Shown piece by piece: positions 3,120 through 49,340 of a DNA stretch of 64,000 nt (position 1 is its first letter; each line of letters opens with the position of its first letter). Below the pieces are notes generated by a model. The model was not told the DNA's origin. It ran no database searches and saw only the letters and a program-made list of their open reading frames with translations. This stretch comes from Candidatus Latescibacterota bacterium. GTDB taxonomy: Bacteria; Latescibacterota; UBA2968; UBA8231. The translations under genes were made by a program, and so were the position numbers. The stretch is from the NCBI GenBank assembly GCA_020852055.1, contig JADZBP010000026.1:1-64000 (forward strand). The letters are read 5' to 3'.

Positions 3120-4013
3120 ATGTCGGTGCATTGGGGCATAGACCTGGGCGGAACCAAGATCGAAGGGGTGGTGCTGGAGGAGGGGCAGACCGAACCTCGC
3201 TGCCGGATCCGTATCCCCACCGAGGCGGCCCAGGGGTACCAGCATATCCTCGGCCAGATCCAGCGGCTGGTGCAGCAGCTCGTGGCGCAGACCCGGCTGC
3301 AGCCCCAGGCCATCGGGGTGGGCACGCCGGGGGTGCTGGACCCACAGACCCAGACCCTCAAGAACAGCAACACCCTCTGCCTCAACGGCCAGCCGCTCAA
3401 GGCCGACCTGGAGCAGGCCCTGGGAGTGCCCCTCGAACTGGCCAATGATGCCAACTGCTTTGCCCTGGCCGAGGCGCGCCTGGGGGCGGGCAAAGGCGCC
3501 GAGACCGTCTTCGGCATCATTATGGGCACCGGGGTGGGCGGGGGGGTGGTGGTGCGCGAGCGGGTGCTCTACGGCTGCCAGGGCATCGCCGGGGAGTGGG
3601 GGCACAATGTGCTGGATGCCGGGGGGCCGGAGTGTTATTGCGGCAAGCGGGGGTGTGTGGAGCGTTTCCTGGCCGGCCCGGCCCTGCAGGAGTACTACAC
3701 CAGCCTGGCCGGCGAGTCCCTGCCCCTGGCCGAGATCGTCCGGCACTACGAGCAGGGCACCGACGCCCATGCCCGCGCCACCGTCGAGCGGATGATCGCC
3801 TACTTCGGTAAGGCCATTGCCTATCTGATCAACATCCTCGACCCGCACGTCATCGTCATCGGCGGCGGGGTGAGCAACGTCGAGTTGCTGTATCGCGAGG
3901 GGGTGCAGGAGGCCAGGCCCTATGTCTTCAACAACCGGCTGGAAACCCGGGTGGTCAAGAACCTGCTGGGCGACAGCGCCGGGGTCTTTGGCGCTGCCAT
4001 GCTGGTGGCCTAG
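3120..4013 (+). CDS. ROK-family sugar kinase
   Basis: 'WGIDLGGTKIEGVVLE', 'GWG/GEWGHNVLDAGGPECYCGKRGCVERFLAGPAL' ROK zinc-binding CxCGxxGCxE motif. Confidence 0.9.
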   Translation: MSVHWGIDLGGTKIEGVVLEEGQTEPRCRIRIPTEAAQGYQHILGQIQRLVQQLVAQTRLQPQAIGVGTPGVLDPQTQTLKNSNTLCLNGQPLKADLEQALGVPLELANDANCFALAEARLGAGKGAETVFGIIMGTGVGGGVVVRERVLYGCQGIAGEWGHNVLDAGGPECYCGKRGCVERFLAGPALQEYYTSLAGESLPLAEIVRHYEQGTDAHARATVERMIAYFGKAIAYLINILDPHVIVIGGGVSNVELLYREGVQEARPYVFNNRLETRVVKNLLGDSAGVFGAAMLVA

Positions 4014-4018
4014 CGGTC

Positions 4019-4885
4019 TCAGGCGCCGTTCTTTTCGATCAGCGAATCGATATCGTCCTGGCTGACCGATTCGTCGTCGACCTCAACCGGGGCCTCCTCG
4101 GCCTCGGCAAAAAGCAGGCGCTCCCCGTCTCCCTCCAGGTCCTCGCGCTCCTCGGCTACTTCCTCCTCGACGACCTCTTCGCTCTCCTCGGCTTCCGCCG
4201 CCTCGGGCTGCTCCTCGATCAGTTCATCGATCTCGTGCTGCTTTTCCTGGGCGGCCTGGCGGTCGTAGCGGGCGTTGGCGTCGTAGGTGCCCTCTTTCAC
4301 CGCGATCTTCGGCCCCTCCATATTGACGCCCAGGCGTTCGATCAGCTGGTGCAGCCCCTGGCCCAGGTTGGCCAGCAGGGCGTGGGTGGCCTCGATCTGC
4401 TGCGAGGTGATGTCCTGGAACTGCAGGGCGCTCATGATGGTGGTTAGGCGCATGCTCAGGTCGTCGATGGCCTCCTCGACACTCTCCCCGGCGGCGGCGG
4501 TCTCGCGGATCTCCTGCAGCTTGGTGTCCATCTCGTCGAGGGCGGTGAGGATCTCGGTGACGGCCATCTCGGCGGCATTGTTGATGGTGCGCAGGTTGTC
4601 CGAGGCGTTGCCCAGGCCCGAGGAACTGGCGCTGGCCAGGCTGAGCATCTGGTTGACCACCGGCACCATGTCGGCCGAGAACTTGAGCACGTGCACCATG
4701 GTGGGGAGGATCTCGCGCAGCAGGACCAGGTGGGCGGCAGAGTATTCGGGGTCGGTCAGCACCTTGGGATAACTGCCCTGCAGCGCGCCGATGTGGAAGA
4801 TCAGGGTGTTAATGCGCTTCTTGACGTCCTTGATGTCAAAGGTGTGCATGCGCTCTTTGACGTGTCTGATATTGACGCTGGCCAT
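4019..4885 (-). CDS. cheZ: CheZ-like CheY-P phosphatase with acidic linker and C-terminal FliM-like peptide
   Basis: 'MSALQFQDITSQQIEATHALL' matches the CheZ catalytic helix (D...Q); C-terminus 'SVSQDDIDSLIEKNGA'. Confidence 0.8.
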   Translation of the reverse strand: MASVNIRHVKERMHTFDIKDVKKRINTLIFHIGALQGSYPKVLTDPEYSAAHLVLLREILPTMVHVLKFSADMVPVVNQMLSLASASSSGLGNASDNLRTINNAAEMAVTEILTALDEMDTKLQEIRETAAAGESVEEAIDDLSMRLTTIMSALQFQDITSQQIEATHALLANLGQGLHQLIERLGVNMEGPKIAVKEGTYDANARYDRQAAQEKQHEIDELIEEQPEAAEAEESEEVVEEEVAEEREDLEGDGERLLFAEAEEAPVEVDDESVSQDDIDSLIEKNGA

Positions 4886-37891: not shown

Positions 37892-39931
37892 TTGTCACTC
37901 AGAGTTCTCATTGCCGAAGATTCCATGGGTATGCGCAAGCTCGTCGGGGCCATGCTCAAAAAATTGGGCTACGACGAGGTGCTCGAAGCCAAACACGGAG
38001 GCGAGGCCTGGTCGATCCTGCGCGCCCAGAGTGTAGACCTCCTGCTGACCGACTGGAACATGCCGATCATGAGCGGCCTGGAACTGGTCGAGAAGGTGCG
38101 CCAGAACCCCGCCTACGATCAGTTGCCCATCCTGATGTTCACTGCCCGCGCTGCCAAGGAAGACGTGATTGCCGCCGTCAAGAGCGGGGTGGACGGTTAT
38201 ATCGCCAAACCCTTCACGCCCCAGCAACTGGAAGCCAAATTGCGCGCCATCGTCGGCCGGCGCCAGCAGAACCAGATCGGCCAGATCCTCCGCGGCAAGG
38301 ACACGCTGGATCGCCACGAGGAGCACACCCTGGTCCTCTTCGGCGAGGAGGCCAATACCCTCGAGCAACTGGCCAAACCGGACAAGTACTACATCGTCCG
38401 CTTCCTCTCTCAGGCGATGATCAGCTACAATCTGCTCAAGGGCCGCTTCCCCGAGGCCAAGGTCGGCTACGGCATCGAATCTAGCAGCAACATCATCACC
38501 AAGCGCCTGCGCGTGCTGGGCAACCGCATCAAACTGCTGATGCTGTCGACGCGGCTGCAGGGTGGCGGGGTTACCCTGGCCCGGCTGGCCAGCATCAACA
38601 GCCGCTCGGGCATGAAGGTCATGGTGTTGTGCGACAACATCAGCGAGCTGAGCAGCAAGGAGCGTTTTGGCCTCGACCGCCTCGGCATCTCCCTGATCGA
38701 GCGCCACAAGCTCAAGAGCGAAGAGCTAGAGCAGCTGATCAACGAGTTTGCTTTCACCCCCGCCCGGCAGGGCCTGCGCGGCGAGTTGCCGCCCCCCGAG
38801 GAGATCCGGCGCCGGCTGGACAACGATATCCGCAACATGGTCAAGCTGCCGGTGCTGCCCGGGGTCTATCACCGGATCGTCTCCCTCGACCACGACCGCG
38901 ACAGCGACATCCAGGAATGGATCAAGGCCATCAACCTCGATCCCCTGTGCCAGGCCCAGGTCATTCGCCGGGCCCGGTCGCCCATCTACGGGTTCCGCGG
39001 CGAAATCACCGACGTGGGCAAGGCCGTCATTCTGATGGGCAAAAACGCCGTCAAGGAGCTAGTGGTTTCGGGGGCGTTGCAGCGTTCCTTCGAGGAGGTG
39101 GACAAGGAGCAGGTTCCGGTCGAGGATTTCTGGCTGCACAGCGTGGCCACGGCCCTTGCCGCGCGTATCCTTTCCTGCCCCCTCGACCCGACCCGCCAGA
39201 GCCCGGACCAGCGCCGCGAACTCGAAGAGCTGGCCTTGCCCCCCGAGGCCATCGATGCCCTCAAGCGGTTCAATATCTACGATCGTCTGCGCCTGAGCGC
39301 CGGCCAGGACCCCTTTATTGGCGGCATGATGCACGATATCGGCAAGATCGCTCTGGCCCACGCTTACCCGGGCATCTTCTCCCTGTTCGTCGAACACCTG
39401 CAGGTGCAGAACTGGAACAGCACCATGCTCTCGGCCGAAGAGATGGTGGCCGGCGGCGCCCAGCATTGCCATGTGGGCCGCATCCTCGCCGACTCGTGGC
39501 AACTGGGCGAGGAAACGACCCGGGTGATCCAGTCGCACCATGCGCCCGCTGCCGACGACCGTTTTTCCCAGCTGATAGGCTTGGCCAATTTCGTGGCCGG
39601 CGGTATCTATCCCTATCCGCTGACTGCCGCCTACCCGCTGGTGCGCCTGCTGCCCGGACTGACGGCGGCCAAGGCGCCGGCGGCGGCGGCGCCCCCACCG
39701 CCGCCGGTCGCCGAAGGTGCGGCAGCCGGGGCGGCTGCGGTTGCCGACGAAGCGCTGCCTTATCCGGTGGGAGCGCAGGAAGCGCTGGCGCAGTTCCTGC
39801 CTACGGGGCTCGTCGAAGCCCTCGTGGTGCAGCCGGATGAGCTGGTCGAGTTGGCCAAACTCCTGGCGCCCACCATTCGCAAATTTACCGAGGATATGCG
39901 CAAAAACCTCAGCACGGGAAAAGGCTCATGA
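37892..39931 (+). CDS. REC-HDOD response regulator (with a second, degenerate REC-like region between)
   Basis: 'LRVLIAEDSMGMRKLVGAMLKKLGY...DLLLTDWNMPIMSGLELV'; HDOD 'LPVLPGVYHRIVSL...DIGKIALAHAYP...HCHVGRILADSWQL'; TTG start. Confidence 0.85.
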   Translation: MSLRVLIAEDSMGMRKLVGAMLKKLGYDEVLEAKHGGEAWSILRAQSVDLLLTDWNMPIMSGLELVEKVRQNPAYDQLPILMFTARAAKEDVIAAVKSGVDGYIAKPFTPQQLEAKLRAIVGRRQQNQIGQILRGKDTLDRHEEHTLVLFGEEANTLEQLAKPDKYYIVRFLSQAMISYNLLKGRFPEAKVGYGIESSSNIITKRLRVLGNRIKLLMLSTRLQGGGVTLARLASINSRSGMKVMVLCDNISELSSKERFGLDRLGISLIERHKLKSEELEQLINEFAFTPARQGLRGELPPPEEIRRRLDNDIRNMVKLPVLPGVYHRIVSLDHDRDSDIQEWIKAINLDPLCQAQVIRRARSPIYGFRGEITDVGKAVILMGKNAVKELVVSGALQRSFEEVDKEQVPVEDFWLHSVATALAARILSCPLDPTRQSPDQRRELEELALPPEAIDALKRFNIYDRLRLSAGQDPFIGGMMHDIGKIALAHAYPGIFSLFVEHLQVQNWNSTMLSAEEMVAGGAQHCHVGRILADSWQLGEETTRVIQSHHAPAADDRFSQLIGLANFVAGGIYPYPLTAAYPLVRLLPGLTAAKAPAAAAPPPPPVAEGAAAGAAAVADEALPYPVGAQEALAQFLPTGLVEALVVQPDELVELAKLLAPTIRKFTEDMRKNLSTGKGS

Positions 39932-40287
39932 GCGAATTCGCCAACAGGCGTCGCCTGACGCGCCTGCCTTTCGCCGTTGAAGTGGAGGTCCGCGCCAAGG
40001 ACCATACCTCCAAGTCCCAGACCAGAGACATCAACATGCAGGGGGTTTTTGTCGCCCAGGAGGAACCCCTGGCTCTGGGCACCGAATGCCAGGTGGAGGT
40101 GGTGCTGTCCTCTGGAGAGGGCAAAATGGCCATCAAGGCCAACGGGGTGGTGGTGTGGCAGGGGCGCGATCCGGAGAGTGGGCTGCAGGGGGTAGGGATC
40201 AAGTTCCTGGAGTTAGATCCCCATTCCCAGGAGATTTTGTGGCTGGTGGTGCGCTATAACAGCCCCATAGAGGAGACCCCGCAGTGA
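39928..40287 (+). CDS. PilZ-domain protein
   Basis: 'NRRRLTRLPFAVEVEVRAKDHTSKSQTRDINMQGVFVAQ...GVGIKFLELDPHSQEIL' PilZ RxxxR...D/NxSxxG-like pattern. Confidence 0.85.
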   Translation: MSEFANRRRLTRLPFAVEVEVRAKDHTSKSQTRDINMQGVFVAQEEPLALGTECQVEVVLSSGEGKMAIKANGVVVWQGRDPESGLQGVGIKFLELDPHSQEILWLVVRYNSPIEETPQ

Positions 40288-41687
40288 CGGCCAACAAAGG
40301 ATACTTCCTGGATGACCAGGCGTTCAAGGCATTCCAGGGGTATATCTACGAACTTACCGGTATACAGTACACCGACGCCAAGCGGCAATTGCTCGATATC
40401 CGGGTCCGGCGCCGCGCCACCCAGGCCGGCCTGGACGATGGCATGGGTTACCTGAACTTCCTCAAGCACAACCCCAACAGCAAACAGGAAGTCGAGGAAC
40501 TCATCGATCAGGTCTCCATCCACGAGACCAGCTTTTTCCGCCATCAGCAGCAGATCGATATCTTCCAGCAGTTGGTAGCCGGCATGATCGAGGCCCGCCG
40601 GGGCCAGCCCGACCAGAGCCTGCGGATCTGGTCGGCGGCCTGCTCTTCTGGCGAAGAGCCCTATACCCTGGCCATGGTGTTGCGCCAGTTGCTGGGTGAT
40701 GCCAAGGGTTGGAACCTCTCGATCCTGGGCACGGATATCAGCAGCGGGACCATCGAAAAAGCCAAAGAGGCCCGCTACAGCGCCCGCAATATCCGCAGCC
40801 TGCCCGAGGTCTACGCCAAACACTTCCAGCCTGACCCAGCCGATCCATACCTGGTGCTGTTGAACCCTCAGATCGCGCGGATGGTGAAGTTCGAGGTGAA
40901 CAGCCTGCTCGACAAAAAGCAGGCCTGGAAGGACATGGATATCATCTTCTGCCGCAATGTGCTCATCTACTTCGATGCGCCCACCAAAAAGAAGGTGCTA
41001 GCCGCGTTGTGGGCGGCGCTCAAGCCGGGGGGGTACCTGGTCCTGGGCCCCTCCGACTCCCTGATGGGCCTGAGCACCGAGTTTCAGCGCACGCCGCACT
41101 CGGCCTACAATTTCTATCAGCGCGCCCCCGAGCCGGCCGCCATGGCCACCACGGGGAAAAAGCCGGCCGCCGCCCCGGTTGCCAGTGCCGGAAAAATAGC
41201 AGTGGCGGCCAAAAGCGCCGCCGCGGAACCCACTCCCGACAACCGGAACTTCGCCGCCAACCTCAAGGCGCGCCGTTATGTGCTGAGGCTCGACAGTGGC
41301 CTGCGCGACATCGACCAGGACCTGCAAAATACCCTGACCCGGGCCATCGAATGCCTGGAGGAACTCTCCGCCGGCACCGAGCAACTCGGCAAGGCTCAGG
41401 AGTTCAACCGCCAGACCCGCGCCACCATCGCCGATGCCAGCCGGCAACTGATGCGCCTGTTGACCCTGCTGCAGGTGGGGGATCGCAGTTACCAGAAGAT
41501 CGAGGCGTTGCGGGTGGTGCTGCAGGAGTTTTCAGATCATCTCTTCGCCGGGGATACGGCGGCTCCCGACCTGCGGGTCAAGACCCAGGTCTACGACCAG
41601 AACATGATCCCCAAGGACGAGGAGAAGGAAGGCGAAAGCACCGAGAAGCCCATGTCCCAGGAGGACATCGACGCGCTTTTCGGCTGA
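40284..41687 (+). CDS. cheR: CheR protein-glutamate methyltransferase with CheZ-like C-terminal extension and FliM-like tail
   Basis: 'IWSAACSSGEEPYTLAMVLRQLL', 'ILGTDISSGTIEKAKEARYSARNIRSLPE', 'DIIFCRNVLIYFD'; extension '...LLQVGDRSYQKIEALR...PMSQEDIDALFG'. GTG start. Confidence 0.93.
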   Translation: MTANKGYFLDDQAFKAFQGYIYELTGIQYTDAKRQLLDIRVRRRATQAGLDDGMGYLNFLKHNPNSKQEVEELIDQVSIHETSFFRHQQQIDIFQQLVAGMIEARRGQPDQSLRIWSAACSSGEEPYTLAMVLRQLLGDAKGWNLSILGTDISSGTIEKAKEARYSARNIRSLPEVYAKHFQPDPADPYLVLLNPQIARMVKFEVNSLLDKKQAWKDMDIIFCRNVLIYFDAPTKKKVLAALWAALKPGGYLVLGPSDSLMGLSTEFQRTPHSAYNFYQRAPEPAAMATTGKKPAAAPVASAGKIAVAAKSAAAEPTPDNRNFAANLKARRYVLRLDSGLRDIDQDLQNTLTRAIECLEELSAGTEQLGKAQEFNRQTRATIADASRQLMRLLTLLQVGDRSYQKIEALRVVLQEFSDHLFAGDTAAPDLRVKTQVYDQNMIPKDEEKEGESTEKPMSQEDIDALFG

Positions 41688-42764
41688 CTATTTCAGGTGG
41701 TGGATGATGGTCGCCGCGATCTCCTCGAGCGGACAGACCGCGTCTGCCAGCCCCGCCTCGACCACCGCCCGGGGCATACCGTAGACCACGCAGCTGCGCT
41801 CGTCCTGGGCGATGATGGTGCCGCCCTTGGCCTTCAGTTGGGTCATGCCCTCCTTGCCGTCCTGCCCCATCCCGGTCATAATCACCCCTAGTGCCGATCC
41901 CCCGTACACCTTGGCTGCCGAGGCCATCAACACGTCTACGGCTGGCCGGTGCGGCACATTGGCAGGTTCCTGATCCAGGCCCACACGGCCACGTTCGCGC
42001 AGAACCAGGTGGCTGTGGCCGGGGGCCAGCAGTACCTGGCCGGGAAGGATTTCGTCCCCTTCCTGGGCCTCTTTCACCTTGACAGCGCTGATGCGGTCGA
42101 GACGGGCAGCCAGCGGCTGGGTGAAGGTGGCCGGCATGTGCTGGACGATCAGGACGCCCACCGGCAGGTCGGCGGGCAGCCTGGGGATCACCACCTGCAA
42201 GGCGTTGGGACCGCCGGTGGAGGTGCCGATCAACACGAGTTCTTTTTTCCCGGCCAGCCTGGTTTTGGGGAGGGCGGCTGGATGGGCAGGCGCTGCCGCG
42301 TGTTTGGCCTCCGGCGCCGATATTGGCGCCGGTGCAGGGACGGGCACCGGCAGTGGTTGGCGCCGCCGGCCGGCGATGGCATGGATCTTTTCCAGCAACT
42401 CCTTGCCCAGCTTGCCCAGTTCCGCCGGGTTGCCGCCGGTGGGTTTGGGCAGGAAGTCGGCTGCTCCCAGGGCCAGCGCATCCAGGGTGACCTCGGCGCC
42501 TTCGGTGGTGACCCCCGAAACCATCAGCACCTGGGTGGGGCACTCGCGCATGATCTGTTTGAGCGCCGCGATGCCGTCCATGACCGGCATGATCACGTCC
42601 AGGGTGATGATATCGGGCTTGAGCTGGTGAGCCTTTTCCACGGCCTCTTCGCCATTGTTGGCCAGGGCCACGACCTCGACCCTCGGGTCGCTCTCCACCA
42701 TCTGCTGCAGCATCTTGCGGGTGAAGAGGGAGTCGTCTACGATCATCAGGCGTATGCGGCTCAT
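41688..42764 (-). CDS. cheB: Chemotaxis response regulator protein-glutamate methylesterase
   Basis: REC 'LMIVDDSLFTRKMLQQMVE'; 'ELVLIGTSTGGPNALQVVIPRLPADLPVGVLIVQHMPATFT', 'VIMTGMGQDGKEGM'. Confidence 0.97.
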   Translation of the reverse strand: MSRIRLMIVDDSLFTRKMLQQMVESDPRVEVVALANNGEEAVEKAHQLKPDIITLDVIMPVMDGIAALKQIMRECPTQVLMVSGVTTEGAEVTLDALALGAADFLPKPTGGNPAELGKLGKELLEKIHAIAGRRRQPLPVPVPAPAPISAPEAKHAAAPAHPAALPKTRLAGKKELVLIGTSTGGPNALQVVIPRLPADLPVGVLIVQHMPATFTQPLAARLDRISAVKVKEAQEGDEILPGQVLLAPGHSHLVLRERGRVGLDQEPANVPHRPAVDVLMASAAKVYGGSALGVIMTGMGQDGKEGMTQLKAKGGTIIAQDERSCVVYGMPRAVVEAGLADAVCPLEEIAATIIHHLK

Positions 42765-42807: not shown

Positions 42808-43407
42808 TCAGGCGCGGCTGGCTTTGCCGCTTTTGCCGACTTCAGTCCACAGTTCCTGGAGGGTCTTCTGCAGGGCTTTGGTGGTAAAAGGCTTGGTCAG
42901 ATAGGCGTCGGCGCCGGCGGCAAGGGCCTGCTGCATATTTTCCTCGGAGTTATGGCCGGTGATCACCAGCACCCCGATGCGGCGGGTCTCGGGGGAGGAT
43001 TTGATCTTCTGGCACAACTCGAAACCGTTCACCCGGGGCATCATCAGGTCGAGGATGATGAGATCGGGTTTGAATTTGGCGATCTGCAGGCCGGCGTCGA
43101 ACCCGTCGGTTGCCGAGGCGAGTTCGTACGCGCCGCTATTGGTCAGATTGCGCAGTACACTTTTGAGTACCCGCTGGTCGTCGTCGACTACCAGCACCCT
43201 GGGCTTGGGCGCCGGCACTTCGTCGAAGGGCGGCCAGTTGTGTTGCTGGAGGAAGTCTCTGAATCCATCGATAGGGATGCGGTGGTGCTTGCCTGGGGTG
43301 ACATAGGCGACGAGTTTGCCGCTCTTGATCCAGTTGTTGACGGTCTCATAGGAGACACGGCAATGAGCGGCCACTTCGCCGGTAGTGAGCAGGCGCTCGC
43401 TCTTCAT
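42808..43407 (-). CDS. Excisionase/MerR-like HTH + REC response regulator
   Basis: N-terminal 'LLTTGEVAAHCRVSYETVNNWIKSGKLVAYVTPGKHHRIPI' then REC 'PRVLVVDDDQRVLKSVL...DLIILDLMMPRVNGFEL'. Start at cat 43405-43407. Confidence 0.88.
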   Translation of the reverse strand: MKSERLLTTGEVAAHCRVSYETVNNWIKSGKLVAYVTPGKHHRIPIDGFRDFLQQHNWPPFDEVPAPKPRVLVVDDDQRVLKSVLRNLTNSGAYELASATDGFDAGLQIAKFKPDLIILDLMMPRVNGFELCQKIKSSPETRRIGVLVITGHNSEENMQQALAAGADAYLTKPFTTKALQKTLQELWTEVGKSGKASRA

Positions 43408-43527
43408 GGGCGTCGGGGGGGATGAGGGTAATGGCCATAATAATTTGAATTTTTGAAGATAGGCGAGAGCCGACAACCTGTCAAACCCGTTTCACCCCCC
43501 GCGGCGCTATTTCGGGCGGAAAACAAG

Positions 43528-44469
43528 TTAGTGGATGTAGCGGCTGATCGTGTCGAGCAGGGTCTGAGGGTCGAGTTTGACCAGATACTCGTCGCAGCCC
43601 GACTGCCTGCCCTTGTCGATATTGGCCTGCCCGCTGAGCGAGGAGTGCATGATCACCGGCAGGTCCCGCAACTGAGGATCGGACTTGATGCGGCTGGTGA
43701 GCAGATAGCCGTCCATACGCGGCATCTCCACGTCGGTGATCACCATCTGCAGCTCGGCTTTGAGCTGGTGGCCGGGGGCCTGGGCCCGGAGGCGGACCAT
43801 CTTGTCGATGGCATCCTGGCCGTCGCTGGCCTCGACCACGCGGAAACCCGCCCGGGTGAGCATGTGGGAGAGCTGCTTGCGGGCCACTGCCGAGTCGTCG
43901 ACGATCAGCACCCGACCCTGGTGCTGCTGGACCGGGTCGATGAGCATGGAGTCGACGACCTCTTCCAGCGGCTGGCCGCGGATCTCGGCGGCGATCTTCT
44001 CCACGTCGATCATCAGCAGGGTCTGGTTCTCGTCGATCAGGGTGGTGCCGATGATCGAGGCTCCGTGCCGCTGGGAGATCAACGAGGGGGGGGGCTTGAT
44101 CGAGTCCCAGGAGACGCGGCGGATGCGGTGGGCCTGGTGGATGATCAAGCCCACGGTCTGGTGGCTGAATTCGGTGACGATGGCCTTGCGGCTGGTGTTC
44201 TGGGGCGGGGCCTCGCGGATCTTGAGCCAGGTAGCCAGATTGACGGCCGGCACCTCCACCCCGCGCAGATTGAACAAACCCTCGATGGCTGGATGGGCTT
44301 CGGGAACCCGCGAAAGCCGGGGGAGGATGATGATCTCGCGTACTTTGGAAACGTTGAGGCCGTAGATCCCCTCGTAGACGGAGCCGTCCTCCCGCTGCTC
44401 GAACAGGCGGAAATCGATCAGCTCGATCAGGTTGCTCTCGATCTTGATGGGTTCCTGTTGTGCGTTCAT
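43528..44469 (-). CDS. cheV: CheV (CheW-REC) coupling protein
   Basis: CheW-like 'NVSKVREIIILPRLSRVPEAHPAIEGLFNLRGVEVPAVNLATWL'; REC 'RVLIVDDSAVARKQLSHML'. Confidence 0.92.
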   Translation of the reverse strand: MNAQQEPIKIESNLIELIDFRLFEQREDGSVYEGIYGLNVSKVREIIILPRLSRVPEAHPAIEGLFNLRGVEVPAVNLATWLKIREAPPQNTSRKAIVTEFSHQTVGLIIHQAHRIRRVSWDSIKPPPSLISQRHGASIIGTTLIDENQTLLMIDVEKIAAEIRGQPLEEVVDSMLIDPVQQHQGRVLIVDDSAVARKQLSHMLTRAGFRVVEASDGQDAIDKMVRLRAQAPGHQLKAELQMVITDVEMPRMDGYLLTSRIKSDPQLRDLPVIMHSSLSGQANIDKGRQSGCDEYLVKLDPQTLLDTISRYIH

Positions 44470-44819: not shown

Positions 44820-45314
44820 ATGACCGACTTACTCTCGACCGCAGAGCCCCAGGCGGAAAACAGCCTGGGTTTTGCCGGAGGCCCGCAGGAAGCAGACCTC
44901 ATCCAGGTGATTGGCCTGGAAGTGACCAATGAGCGTTTCATCATTGATATCCTGCACGTGCGCGAAATCGTCCGATTCAGCGAGCTGGAGATCACCCGGG
45001 TGCCGCACTCCCATCTCTATATCCTGGGGGTGGTCAACCTGCGCGGCAAGGTGGTGCCGGTGGTGGATCTGGCCACGCGGTTGGGCCTGCAGTCTCAGGG
45101 CCGCAGCCGCCAATCGCGCCTGGTGGTGGTGGATATCGCCGACCGGCTGATGGGGTTCACCGTCGACGCGGTTTCCGAGGTGCTGCGCCTCAGCCAGGAA
45201 CAGATCGAACCTTCGGCCAACACCGAGGAGTACGTGGCCGGCACGGCTACGGTCAATCACCAGATCATGACCCTGCTGGATCTGGGCAAACTGCTCGCCA
45301 ACGCACAGGAATAG
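44820..45314 (+). CDS. cheW: CheW coupling protein
   Basis: 'LEVTNERFIIDILHVREIVRFSELEITRVPHSHLYILGVVNLRGKVVPVVDLATRLGL'. Confidence 0.95.
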   Translation: MTDLLSTAEPQAENSLGFAGGPQEADLIQVIGLEVTNERFIIDILHVREIVRFSELEITRVPHSHLYILGVVNLRGKVVPVVDLATRLGLQSQGRSRQSRLVVVDIADRLMGFTVDAVSEVLRLSQEQIEPSANTEEYVAGTATVNHQIMTLLDLGKLLANAQE

Positions 45315-45354: not shown

Positions 45355-47682
45355 ATGGAAGAAGATCTCGATATCATCAAGGAATTGACCGACGAGTTTA
45401 TCAAAGAGGCACCAGCCCTCCTCGAACAACTGGAGTACCAGCTGGAGATCCTCGAGGCTGACCCGGCCGATACCGGGGCGGTGGAAGCGCTGGCCGAGGT
45501 GTTCAAGACCCTGATGCAGCGGGTCGGGTTTCTCAATTTCGACGCCCTGGTCTCCCTGCTCCAGGGCTTGGGCGGGTTGCTGGCGACGCCCGATCCGCTG
45601 GGGCCGGTCGCCCTCGAGCTGTTGCGCCAGGGCCGTGACCAGATCGGTGAGGGCTTGCAGTACCTGGGCGCTTACGAGGCTGGTTCCTTTGATCCTGGTG
45701 AGTTGCTGGCCGCGCTGGACCAGCGGGCCGGCATTGCGGCGCCCACGTACCAAGAAGAACACACCGAGGAACTGCGCCTCGAGGAGGAACAGGCAGCGGT
45801 TGCACCGATGGAGTCACAGGCTGAGGCGGAGCCGGAGCTAGCTCCCGAGGTCGAGTTGACCCCCGAGGCCCGGGTGGCAGACCTTGGAGTGACTGAAACC
45901 CCGGCGCTACTTCCGGTTGCTTCGGCGGCCGAGGAGGAAGAGGAGGTGGTGCAGGAGGGACCGCTCAGCGGCGAGGTGATGGATTTTGTCCCGGATTTCA
46001 TCACCGAATCGAACGAGATTCTCGAGAAGTTGGACGAGAACCTAGTTCACCTCGAAGAGGCCAGCAGCGATCTCGACCTGCTCAACGAGATCTTCCGCGG
46101 CGCCCATACCCTCAAGGGAGCGGCCGGTTTCCTGGGCTTCACCCAGATGGCGGGGGTGACCCACAAGATGGAGAACCTCCTCGACCTGTTGCGCAAAGGC
46201 CAGATGCAGCTCTCCCAGGGCATCATGGATGTCATTTTGCAGGGCGTGGATCAGATCAAGGTGCTCCAGGCCGACATCCGCAACAATTTCATCGTGCGGC
46301 GCGACACCAGTGCGGTGCGCCGGGCCCTGACCCATATCGCCGAGACCAAAGGCGCCGATGCGGGCTCCCCGGTGGCGGTGCCGGCGGCGGCAGTGGCCCC
46401 GGTGGCGGCACCGGCAGCTTCGGCGGAGGCACCAGTCCCCCATGAGGCGGCGGCTGGCGCGCATCCTGCCCCGGCGGCGGGCGCCGACCAGGTTATCCGG
46501 GTGGATGTGGGACGTATCGACAAGATCATGACCCTGGCAGAGGAACTGGTGCTGGGGCGCAACCGCCTGCTCCAGCTCAACACCCAGCTGGTGGCCGAAC
46601 ACGGTGAAGAGGAACTGGTCAACCGCCTCAACGAGGCGACCGCCCAGGTCAACATGCTCACCGGCGAACTGCAGGAATCGGTGATGATGATGCGGATGAT
46701 TCCGGTCAGCCGTGTCTTTGCCCGTTTCCCCCGCATGGTGCGCGACCTGGCCCGCGACCTGAACAAGCAGATCGAACTGGTGATCGAGGATCACGACGCC
46801 GAGATCGACAAGTCGGTGGCCGACGAGATCGGCGATCCCCTCATCCACTTGATCCGCAATGCGGTGGACCACGGGGTGGAGACGCCGGCAGCGAGGCAGC
46901 AGGCGGGCAAGGACCCGCGGGGCATCATCCGGCTTTCCGCTACCCACGAGGCCAACCACATCGTCCTGCGCATCCAGGACGATGGCAAGGGTATGGATCC
47001 GGCCAAACTCAAGCAGAAGGCGGTCGAAAAGGGGATCATCAGCACCGCTGACGCCGAGCGTATGGACGACAGTGAAGCCTATAGCCTGATTTTCCTGCCA
47101 GGATTCAGCACCGCCCAGACCATCACCTCGGTTTCGGGGCGCGGGGTGGGCATGGATGTGGTGCGCACCAATATCACCCGCCTCAACGGCACCATCGATC
47201 TGGACTCCACCCTCGGCACGGGCACCACCATCACCATCCGCCTGCCCCTTACCCTGGCGATCATCAGCGGCCTGCAGGTGGCGGCGGCCGACGAGATTTT
47301 TATCGTGCCCCTCACCGCAGTGATCGAGGCGGTGCGTATTTCGCAGGACCAGGTCGAATCCCTTCAGGGCCGCCAGGTGATCCTGTCCCGGGACAAGGTG
47401 CTGCCGCTCATCGATCTGGGGCAGGTGCTGCAGGTGCCGGTTGCCAGCGAGGGGAAACAGGAGGCCTATGTGGTAGTGGCCGGTCTGGCCGAGCGTCGAG
47501 TAGGCATCCTGGTCGATCGCCTGCTGGGTCAGGTCGATGTGGTCATCAAGGCGCTGGGTGATTTTGTCGGCCCGGCTCATGGGATCGCCGGGGCCACCAT
47601 CCTGGGGGATGGGCGGGTGCGGCTCATCCTCGACGTGGGCAAGTTGATGGACCTGCAGGAGCGGTACCGCGAAGCGGGTTGA
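45355..47682 (+). CDS. cheA: CheA histidine kinase with an extra N-terminal HPt-like domain
   Basis: HPt 'EIFRGAHTLKGAAGFLGFTQMAGVTHKMENLLDLLR', 'ADEIGDPLIHLIRNAVDHGVE', 'GRGVGMDVVRTNI', CheW-like C-terminus. Confidence 0.96.
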   Translation: MEEDLDIIKELTDEFIKEAPALLEQLEYQLEILEADPADTGAVEALAEVFKTLMQRVGFLNFDALVSLLQGLGGLLATPDPLGPVALELLRQGRDQIGEGLQYLGAYEAGSFDPGELLAALDQRAGIAAPTYQEEHTEELRLEEEQAAVAPMESQAEAEPELAPEVELTPEARVADLGVTETPALLPVASAAEEEEEVVQEGPLSGEVMDFVPDFITESNEILEKLDENLVHLEEASSDLDLLNEIFRGAHTLKGAAGFLGFTQMAGVTHKMENLLDLLRKGQMQLSQGIMDVILQGVDQIKVLQADIRNNFIVRRDTSAVRRALTHIAETKGADAGSPVAVPAAAVAPVAAPAASAEAPVPHEAAAGAHPAPAAGADQVIRVDVGRIDKIMTLAEELVLGRNRLLQLNTQLVAEHGEEELVNRLNEATAQVNMLTGELQESVMMMRMIPVSRVFARFPRMVRDLARDLNKQIELVIEDHDAEIDKSVADEIGDPLIHLIRNAVDHGVETPAARQQAGKDPRGIIRLSATHEANHIVLRIQDDGKGMDPAKLKQKAVEKGIISTADAERMDDSEAYSLIFLPGFSTAQTITSVSGRGVGMDVVRTNITRLNGTIDLDSTLGTGTTITIRLPLTLAIISGLQVAAADEIFIVPLTAVIEAVRISQDQVESLQGRQVILSRDKVLPLIDLGQVLQVPVASEGKQEAYVVVAGLAERRVGILVDRLLGQVDVVIKALGDFVGPAHGIAGATILGDGRVRLILDVGKLMDLQERYREAG

Positions 47683-47757: not shown

Positions 47758-48972
47758 CTATTCAGCCGCCTTTTGCTCCAGGGAAGGGCCAAAGAGACAA
47801 TTGGTGGTATCGTTCAGATACACGTGGCCATCCTTGAGCAGGAGCTTGCATTTCATGGTCTGGCTCAACTCGAGTTCCTTGGTCTGGGTGATCCAGTCTT
47901 CGCTGCCCACGTAGGTATAGGTCAGGTTCATGCGGTCCTTGTCGCTGCCCAACTGGCAGGCCAGGTTGCAGTCGGCCACCTTTTCGGGGACGATCTTGCT
48001 GCCGGTGACGTGGAACTTCCAGCGCGGGTACTCGATCTGGAAGAAGGGCGCCAACTGTCCTTCGACACTGAGGATCATTGGTGCGTCGCAGAGCCGGTCA
48101 ACTACGGTCTGGGTGAACTGCTCGGTGATCCGGAACCAGGCCTGGATCAGTTTGGGAAAGAGGTAGTCGTACAGCGCGTCCACCGCCACCTGGTACGCTT
48201 CCTCGCCTCGCTGCTTGCGCAGCGCCGCGCCGATGCCGCCGCTATTGGCCTGGCGCAGACTTTCGCGCAGGGTTTCGCGCAGGATTTCTTTGAAGCGGGA
48301 GATCTGTTCGGTTTTGGGGAGGCCCTCTTCCTGGCCCAGCTTGAGGATCAGGTGACGCAGCAGTGTTTTGAGGTCCAGTTCGACCTCGCGGCCCCGTCGG
48401 GTGGGATTGAGGGTAAAAACGGTTTTCGATTGCCGCCCCAGCGTGGCGAAGACCCGAATGTTATAGGGGACTTCCTTCAGGGCGCGCAACAGCAACTGGC
48501 GGGCGGTGTCCTCGCGCTGCGACTGTTGGCTGCTTTCCAACTCGCGCAGCTTCTCCAGGCCCTGCTGGGCCTGGGCGAAAAACCCCGGGTCGCTGGTGGC
48601 CTCGAAGACGATCCACGAATCGACATTGGACTCGCCCTTGCTGCCGAGGTTGTGGACGATCTCTACGTGGCGGGCCCCTTCCAGGCGGCCGCTTAATAGA
48701 TTTCCGGCCTTGACCCGGTAGGCGCCAAAGACCTGGCCACTCAAGGAGCCCAGCACGGTGACCGGGCGCGGGTAGGCCAGGCGCAGCTTCGATCCTTCCT
48801 CGATACTGCGAAGCACCAGTACCGGCCCCAGGCGTGGCTTACCCTTCTGGTCCACATCGTTCAACTCGACCTCGCCCTCGACCCGCTCGAGCACCGTGCC
48901 ATTTTGCAGCAGGATGCGGGATTTCAGCTGGTCAAGCGCGCTTTTTCCCTTGTTGCTCGCTACACCTGTCAC
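47758..48972 (-). CDS. Uncharacterised protein in chemotaxis locus (weak FapA/DUF342-like N-terminal resemblance)
   Basis: 404 aa ORF overlapping the cheY stop by 4 nt; no family confidently recognised. Confidence 0.75.
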   Translation of the reverse strand: MTGVASNKGKSALDQLKSRILLQNGTVLERVEGEVELNDVDQKGKPRLGPVLVLRSIEEGSKLRLAYPRPVTVLGSLSGQVFGAYRVKAGNLLSGRLEGARHVEIVHNLGSKGESNVDSWIVFEATSDPGFFAQAQQGLEKLRELESSQQSQREDTARQLLLRALKEVPYNIRVFATLGRQSKTVFTLNPTRRGREVELDLKTLLRHLILKLGQEEGLPKTEQISRFKEILRETLRESLRQANSGGIGAALRKQRGEEAYQVAVDALYDYLFPKLIQAWFRITEQFTQTVVDRLCDAPMILSVEGQLAPFFQIEYPRWKFHVTGSKIVPEKVADCNLACQLGSDKDRMNLTYTYVGSEDWITQTKELELSQTMKCKLLLKDGHVYLNDTTNCLFGPSLEQKAAE

Positions 48973-49340
48973 TTCTTGATCAGCACGCGGTCGATTTTCT
49001 CTTTGATGGTCTTGGGATCGAAGGGTTTGGTGACGTAGTTGTTGACCCCGGCCTTCATGGCAGCGACGATGTCCTGTTTCATGTTGCGGGTGGTCACCAT
49101 CAGGATGGGGAGGCCGGCCAGTTTGGCATCGGCGCGCACCGCCTGGGTCAGTTCCAGGCCAGTCATCACTGGCATGTTCCAGTCGGTGAGCAACAATTCG
49201 AAGTTGCCCTCGGCATGCAGGCGCTCCAGGGCGTTCTGGCCGTTGTCGGCTTCCGAGATGTCATTATAGCCGATTTTCTTGAGCATCTGGACCACGATGC
49301 GGCGCATCGTGGGGGAGTCGTCCACGACGAGTACTTTCAT
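48969..49340 (-). CDS. cheY: Single-domain CheY response regulator
   Basis: 'MKVLVVDDSPTMRRIVVQMLKKIGYNDISEADNGQNALERL...LLLTDWNMPVMTGLEL...VTKPFDPKTIKEKI'. Confidence 0.95.
   Translation of the reverse strand: MKVLVVDDSPTMRRIVVQMLKKIGYNDISEADNGQNALERLHAEGNFELLLTDWNMPVMTGLELTQAVRADAKLAGLPILMVTTRNMKQDIVAAMKAGVNNYVTKPFDPKTIKEKIDRVLIKK

Follow-up and report, generated by a model that had tools for sequence, protein, structure and literature searches.

A CheR methyltransferase with a CheZ-derived C-terminal domain in the Latescibacterota, a candidate receptor-array-tethered CheY-P phosphatase

The window, i.e., the whole stretch of 64,000 nucleotides of a Candidatus Latescibacterota bacterium analyzed here, contains a chemotaxis cluster in the order receiver-HDOD, PilZ, CheR, CheB-like, CheV-like, CheW, CheA, unknown gene and CheY. 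It comes from a draft MAG (G000) of 5.6 Mb in 333 contigs, with 7% contamination. The receiver-HDOD gene, identified with Pfam (37892-39931, +), lies upstream of cheR, as does its homolog in three other genomes (G009, G014, and G020). The cheB-like gene (41688-42764, -), assigned by sequence from its receiver and methylesterase parts, has a homolog that adjoins the corresponding cheR in G008. Pfam matches identify the cheV-like gene (CheW and receiver domain; 43528-44469, -), cheW (44820-45314, +), cheA (Hpt, H-kinase_dim, HATPase, and CheW; 45355-47682, +) and cheY (Response_reg; 48969-49340, -), the product of which is the presumed substrate and partner of the CheR protein discussed below. 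Between cheB and cheV, the short open reading frame at 42808-43476 (-) appears by eye to encode an excisionase/MerR-type DNA-binding segment joined to a receiver domain. The 404-amino acid protein encoded at 47758-48972 (-) has no Pfam match; its start codon overlaps the cheY stop, and a homolog with 61% identity is located beside cheY in G014. Elsewhere in this genome, a second che cluster combines CheX with an ordinary CheR and a CheD-like gene, and three separate FliM genes are present (C244, C330, and C225), as at least three are in several relatives.

The cheR gene (40284-41687, +; GTG start) encodes a protein of 467 amino acids, about 190 of which extend beyond the Pfam-matched CheR domain. 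As in other CheR proteins (PF01739/PF03705), both domains are complete: the N-terminal all-alpha domain (CheR_N, PF03705, E 3.4e-10; aa 13-64, 40320-40475, +) and the SAM-binding methyltransferase domain (CheR, PF01739, E 3e-56; aa 81-272, 40524-41099, +). In an alignment with E. coli CheR, from which the G011 row, being out of frame, was left out, the equivalents of R98, E129, D154, and Y235 are kept in the CheR of the window, G009 and G008, and G014 has F at the position of Y235. No TPR match was found in the protein (Pfam, E<=10). Downstream of the methyltransferase domain and on the same strand (+), an Ala/Pro linker (about aa 283-318; 41130-41237), read from the sequence and of low pLDDT in the full-length model, leads into a CheZ-like hairpin. 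In AlphaFold models this consists of helix 1 (about aa 320-370; 41241-41393) and helix 2 (about aa 376-426; 41409-41561), the latter being the putative active-site helix that is also covered by the hhalign alignment with CheZ. Helix 2 includes LMRLLTLLQVGDRSYQKIEALRVVLQEF (aa 389-416), with D400 (GAT, 41481-41483) and Q404 (CAG, 41493-41495), which align with D158 and Q162 of the stand-alone CheZ in the window and with D143 and Q147 of E. coli CheZ. The hairpin is followed by a YDQN motif (41592-41603), aligned with YDAN of CheZ by hhalign, an acidic linker read from the sequence (41613-41654), and the CheY-docking-type peptide SQEDIDALFG (41655-41684), predicted to be helical in the models. 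The original prediction that CheR runs on through an Ala/Pro linker into a helical segment thus agrees with the domain scan, the sequence and the AlphaFold models, and its positions for the D and Q codons and for the start of SQEDIDALFG are exact to the base.

A stand-alone CheZ of 288 amino acids is encoded in the same window (4019-4885, -), recognized from Pfam and profile matches, with LQFQDITSQQ in the active-site helix and SQDDIDSLIEKNGA at the C-terminus. It scores 22.3 bits (E 1.3e-4) against Pfam CheZ, below the curated cut-off of 30.7, so this cut-off misses genuine CheZs of the lineage. The CheR tail itself matched neither the Pfam (PF04344) nor the NCBIfam CheZ model, and its Pfam matches were weak and of coiled-coil type (Sec20, ATG16). 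As Pfam CheZ is blind to the tail and weak on the CheZ of the lineage, relatives were gathered. When 60 related genomes were searched at the protein level, the extension was found on CheR in five further genomes, and the two weakest matches, open reading frames of 258 and 281 amino acids, proved to be stand-alone CheZs. Pairwise BLASTP with one CheZ as the target aligned no part of the tail except the docking peptide, indicating that single sequences are too diverged and that profiles are needed.

Profile comparisons place the tail with CheZ. In hhalign, the six CheR tails match the six stand-alone CheZs with a probability of 96% (P about 4e-9) over ~96 columns, corresponding to residues about 100-204 of CheZ only. 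The true pair scores 63.8, whereas reversed profiles score 15 and none of 100 heptad-block shuffles exceeds 33. A CheZ-only HMM places every one of the six tails above all of ~1,200 decoys made by shuffling or reversing tail sequences. When the six-tail profile was searched in six frames against 65 genomes of the phylum, it gave 11 matches at E<=1e-3, of which six were the CheR tails and five were CheZs (the stand-alone CheZ of the window among them); no other kind of protein was matched. Conversely, CheZ-only profiles rank the CheR tail next after CheZ in the genome of the window (E 4e-5 and 2e-5) and also recover the tails in G009 and G020; reciprocal six-frame searches of the whole window genome returned only CheZ and cheR-cheZ. 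The alignment is colinear from helix 1 through the D and Q on helix 2 to the YDxN motif. The CheZs of the lineage align with E. coli CheZ at P 0.004, which brings D143 and Q147 of the latter into register with the D and Q pair. Aligned directly with the one E. coli sequence, the tails reach only P 0.05, a weak match in which D, Q, and the C-terminal SQDQVDDLL helix are nonetheless colinear; the link to E. coli CheZ runs via the CheZs of the lineage, that of the window also matching Pfam CheZ at E 1.3e-4. Together, the profile comparison, the reciprocal searches and the decoy controls support homology well, and they identify the tail as a genuine though diverged member of the CheZ family and not as a look-alike. 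The resemblance to the stand-alone CheZ with retention of D-x-x-x-Q, as originally proposed, is thereby borne out; the check suggested for the extension failed with the PF04344 model and succeeded in profile-profile comparison.

The AlphaFold model of the tail, a monomer built from three input sequences, shows two antiparallel helices forming a hairpin, predicted with moderate confidence (pLDDT about 70-82 for most hairpin residues). The first helix spans aa 318-370 and, after a turn, the second spans aa 376-422, with a kink beside the D/Q site; the docking motif forms a further, short helix at the C-terminus. In the full-length model pLDDT is <50 for aa 284-329. As in E. coli CheZ, D400 and Q404 lie opposite the hydrophobic face, and the predicted hairpin exposing both residues was thus recovered. 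A Foldseek search with the tail model returned generic helical hairpins only, none at E<0.001, and so provides no fold evidence for CheZ specifically. A PDB search with the tail profile gave no significant relative and no coiled coil at E<0.3.

The other five tails are 33-40% identical to that of the window, and all six share LQV[GS]DRxxQ[KR]xEALR, with D and Q invariant (6/6), and SQ[DE][DE]IDALF, which forms the C-terminus in every case. The surroundings of the active site differ from the stand-alone CheZ (LQVGDR in the tail vs. LQFQDIT), and the AxxFQ motif is replaced by LLQVGD, FLQVGD and similar. For one near genome pair, dN/dS is about 0.5 in the hairpin compared to about 0.2 in the methyltransferase domain, which indicates that the tail is under genuine, though weaker, constraint. 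CheY-P of E. coli binds the N-terminus of FliM and the C-terminus of CheZ. The acidic linker and terminal SQEDIDALFG pointed out originally can be read directly from the sequence, and the same motif recurs in CheZ and FliM: a degenerate search for SQ[DE][DE]IDxL in the 5.6-Mb genome found exactly four places (none in the reversed control), at the C-termini of CheZ and of the cheR-cheZ product, at the N-terminus of FliM (MGDILSQEEIDQLL) and at the C-terminus of an acidic multi-motif protein.

Six genomes carry the fusion, CheR-Z; they represent five genera (g1, g3, g5, g6, and g7) of a single family of uncultured, poorly known bacteria. In a tail profile search the fusion was absent from 39 other genomes of the phylum, and no relative was found in viral contigs and plasmids. 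Named relatives among the matches listed are at least two (L020 and L021), from MAGs labelled Gemmatimonadetes and Candidatus Latescibacterota. The Pfam CheR domains, the profile homology and this recurrence establish the proposed joining of CheR to a CheZ-derived module, and the LQV[GS]DR signature common to all tails is most simply explained by a single, old fusion. CheR-Z is linked to genomes bearing CheA: CheA occurs together with a clear CheR in seven genomes of the family, all of them with CheR-Z except G007, in which an ordinary CheR and a stand-alone CheZ are found. In two further genomes (G002:C13 and G016:C181; L052 and L050), an intact stand-alone CheZ and FliM were observed, and CheA and CheR were not detected; this reflects either gaps in the MAGs or a use of CheZ without a classical che system.

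The fate of the stand-alone cheZ differs among the genomes that carry the fusion. In G009, CheR-Z is intact and cheZ has decayed, at its syntenic place, to ~86 codons with an in-frame stop and an unrecognizable N-terminus (L046 8750-9007, G009:C203:65755-66012), adjoining the homolog of the gene at 3120-4013 of the window. A stand-alone CheZ was not detected by profile searches in the draft MAGs G008, G011, and G020, and CheX and CheC were not found in the draft MAGs G008, G009, G011, and G020. The genome of the window retains an intact stand-alone CheZ as well as CheX, and CheR-Z is consequently not the sole candidate phosphatase there. As all genomes are draft MAGs the absence of a gene is weak evidence, yet the decayed cheZ in G009 and the missing CheZ, CheX, and CheC in the others suggest that CheR-Z can replace CheZ.

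The last ~150 residues of CheR represent the catalytic part of CheZ in diverged form, and we consider it probable that they act as a CheY-P phosphatase tethered to the receptor array. The CheR part would bind the array and methylate receptors, and the C-terminal SQEDIDALF helix would catch CheY-P in the manner of the C-terminus of CheZ and the N-terminus of FliM. In a dimer of CheR-Z the hairpins probably pair into a four-helix bundle, and Q404 and D400 would be placed at the aspartyl-phosphate of CheY and accelerate its hydrolysis. CheR would take the place of the N-terminal helical region of CheZ and hold the phosphatase at the source of CheY-P, a task performed by CheA-short in E. coli and by the N-terminal helix of CheZ itself in Azorhizobium. 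The N-terminal region of Azorhizobium CheZ is sufficient for polar localization (PMC7750401), and by analogy this fits with CheR supplying the localization address. Binding of CheY-P by CheR-Z is predicted with high confidence. Its dephosphorylation, predicted from homology, conserved residues, and gene-content patterns, is likely, and tethering at the array only slightly less so. Two observations make catalysis the most probable reading: D and Q do not vary among tails otherwise so diverged, and in several genomes that retain the fusion the stand-alone CheZ has decayed or was not detected.

The main rival to the phosphatase reading is a non-catalytic CheY-P sensor. The CheZ-derived tail would then bind CheY-P with little or no catalysis, and CheY-P occupancy would alter the activity or localization of CheR, so that methylation follows output. 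The conserved docking peptide, the altered D/Q surroundings and the separate CheZ kept in the genome of the window are all compatible with such feedback, and there is a precedent in the CheR-TPR protein FrzF, whose TPR extension has been reported to restrict methylation (PMC3447774). It leaves the invariance of both D and Q in six diverged tails unaccounted for, and the takeover by CheR-Z suggested by the decayed cheZ in G009 and by three more genomes in which CheZ, CheX, and CheC are all missing also points away from it; we regard this feedback as rather unlikely, though worth serious consideration.

It is far less probable that the tail is an unrelated dimerizing coiled coil with a CheY-docking peptide, its likeness to CheZ being convergent. 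Long helical hairpins resemble each other, as the generic Foldseek hits illustrate, and the weak Sec20 and ATG16 matches are of the coiled-coil type. Such a convergent origin is hard to reconcile with reciprocal genome-wide searches specific to CheZ and the CheR tails, with reversed and heptad-block-shuffled controls that score far lower and ~1,200 decoys that all six tails beat, with an alignment that reaches past the helices to YDxN in the D..Q register, or with a tail profile that matches no PDB coiled coils. Finally, a chance match or an artefact (frameshift or MAG chimera), conceivable for a contaminated draft assembly, is refuted by the intact fusion in six independent genomes of five genera, with the same neighbors in several, and is given practically no weight.

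The acidic protein of 460 amino acids found in the motif search (L057, on C40 of the same genome, with the motif at about 17190) has relatives (L068 and L070). Its N-terminus resembles the N-terminal domain of CheZ (HMM i-Evalues of 3e-5 to 1e-3 in three genomes). The remainder, a long acidic and Ala/Pro stretch, carries numerous FliM/CheZ-like docking motifs and ends in SQDEIDALFG. This protein is possibly a multivalent CheY-P binder. We tentatively raise the idea that CheZ has been dismantled in this lineage, its hairpin and docking helix going to CheR as a receptor-tethered form that can replace CheZ, and its N-terminal domain to the acidic protein, which might serve as a CheY-P buffer or scaffold.

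To our knowledge, the chemotaxis systems described so far assign adaptation to CheR and signal termination to CheZ, as two separate proteins. A CheR-CheZ fusion was not found in the literature (open-licence papers), and although the parts of CheR-Z are known, their combination appears to be new. CheZ starts with an N-terminal helix, continues with a hairpin that pairs into a four-helix bundle in the dimer, and ends, after a linker, in a C-terminal helix; its active motif is DxxxQ, next to which an AxxFQ motif influences localization (PMC7750401). The CheR-Z tail shares with CheZ (PF04344; E. coli structure 1KMI) the hairpin, the D-x-x-x-Q on helix 2, the linker and a C-terminal helix of CheY-binding type. 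It differs in having CheR instead of the N-terminal helix, in lacking AxxFQ, in its LQVGDR where CheZ has FQDLT/FQDIT, and in falling below Pfam detection. Accessory domains at the C-terminus of CheR are a known theme, exemplified by FrzF (PMC3447774), in which the accessory domain is TPR rather than CheZ. The CheA-CheC/CheX fusions of Leptospirae, for which a dual function was proposed (PMC10782961), likewise join a CheY-P phosphatase domain, as predicted for CheR-Z, to a chemotaxis enzyme, but with the CheC/CheX fold and with a kinase rather than a methyltransferase as partner. R. sphaeroides CheA3 is a bifunctional kinase-phosphatase (Porter et al., 2008, cited in PMC10782961); it would resemble the predicted CheR-Z in uniting a signalling enzyme with CheY-P phosphatase activity in one polypeptide, with a kinase as the partner. 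In E. coli, CheA-short anchors CheZ at the array (Cantwell et al., 2003, cited in PMC2577667). The proposed logic of a phosphatase held at the receptor patch would be common to both, the tether being non-covalent via CheA-short in E. coli and covalent via CheR in CheR-Z.

Proteins that carry no annotation beyond CheR thus contain CheZ-type phosphatase domains, recognized by homology, that Pfam overlooks. In standard models of adaptation, the amounts of the methylating enzyme and of the phosphatase are independent quantities. If our reading is correct, a covalent CheR-CheZ would fix their proportion at the receptor array, adaptation and signal termination may share one molecule, and CheR-CheZ would represent a natural test of why CheZ localizes at receptor patches.
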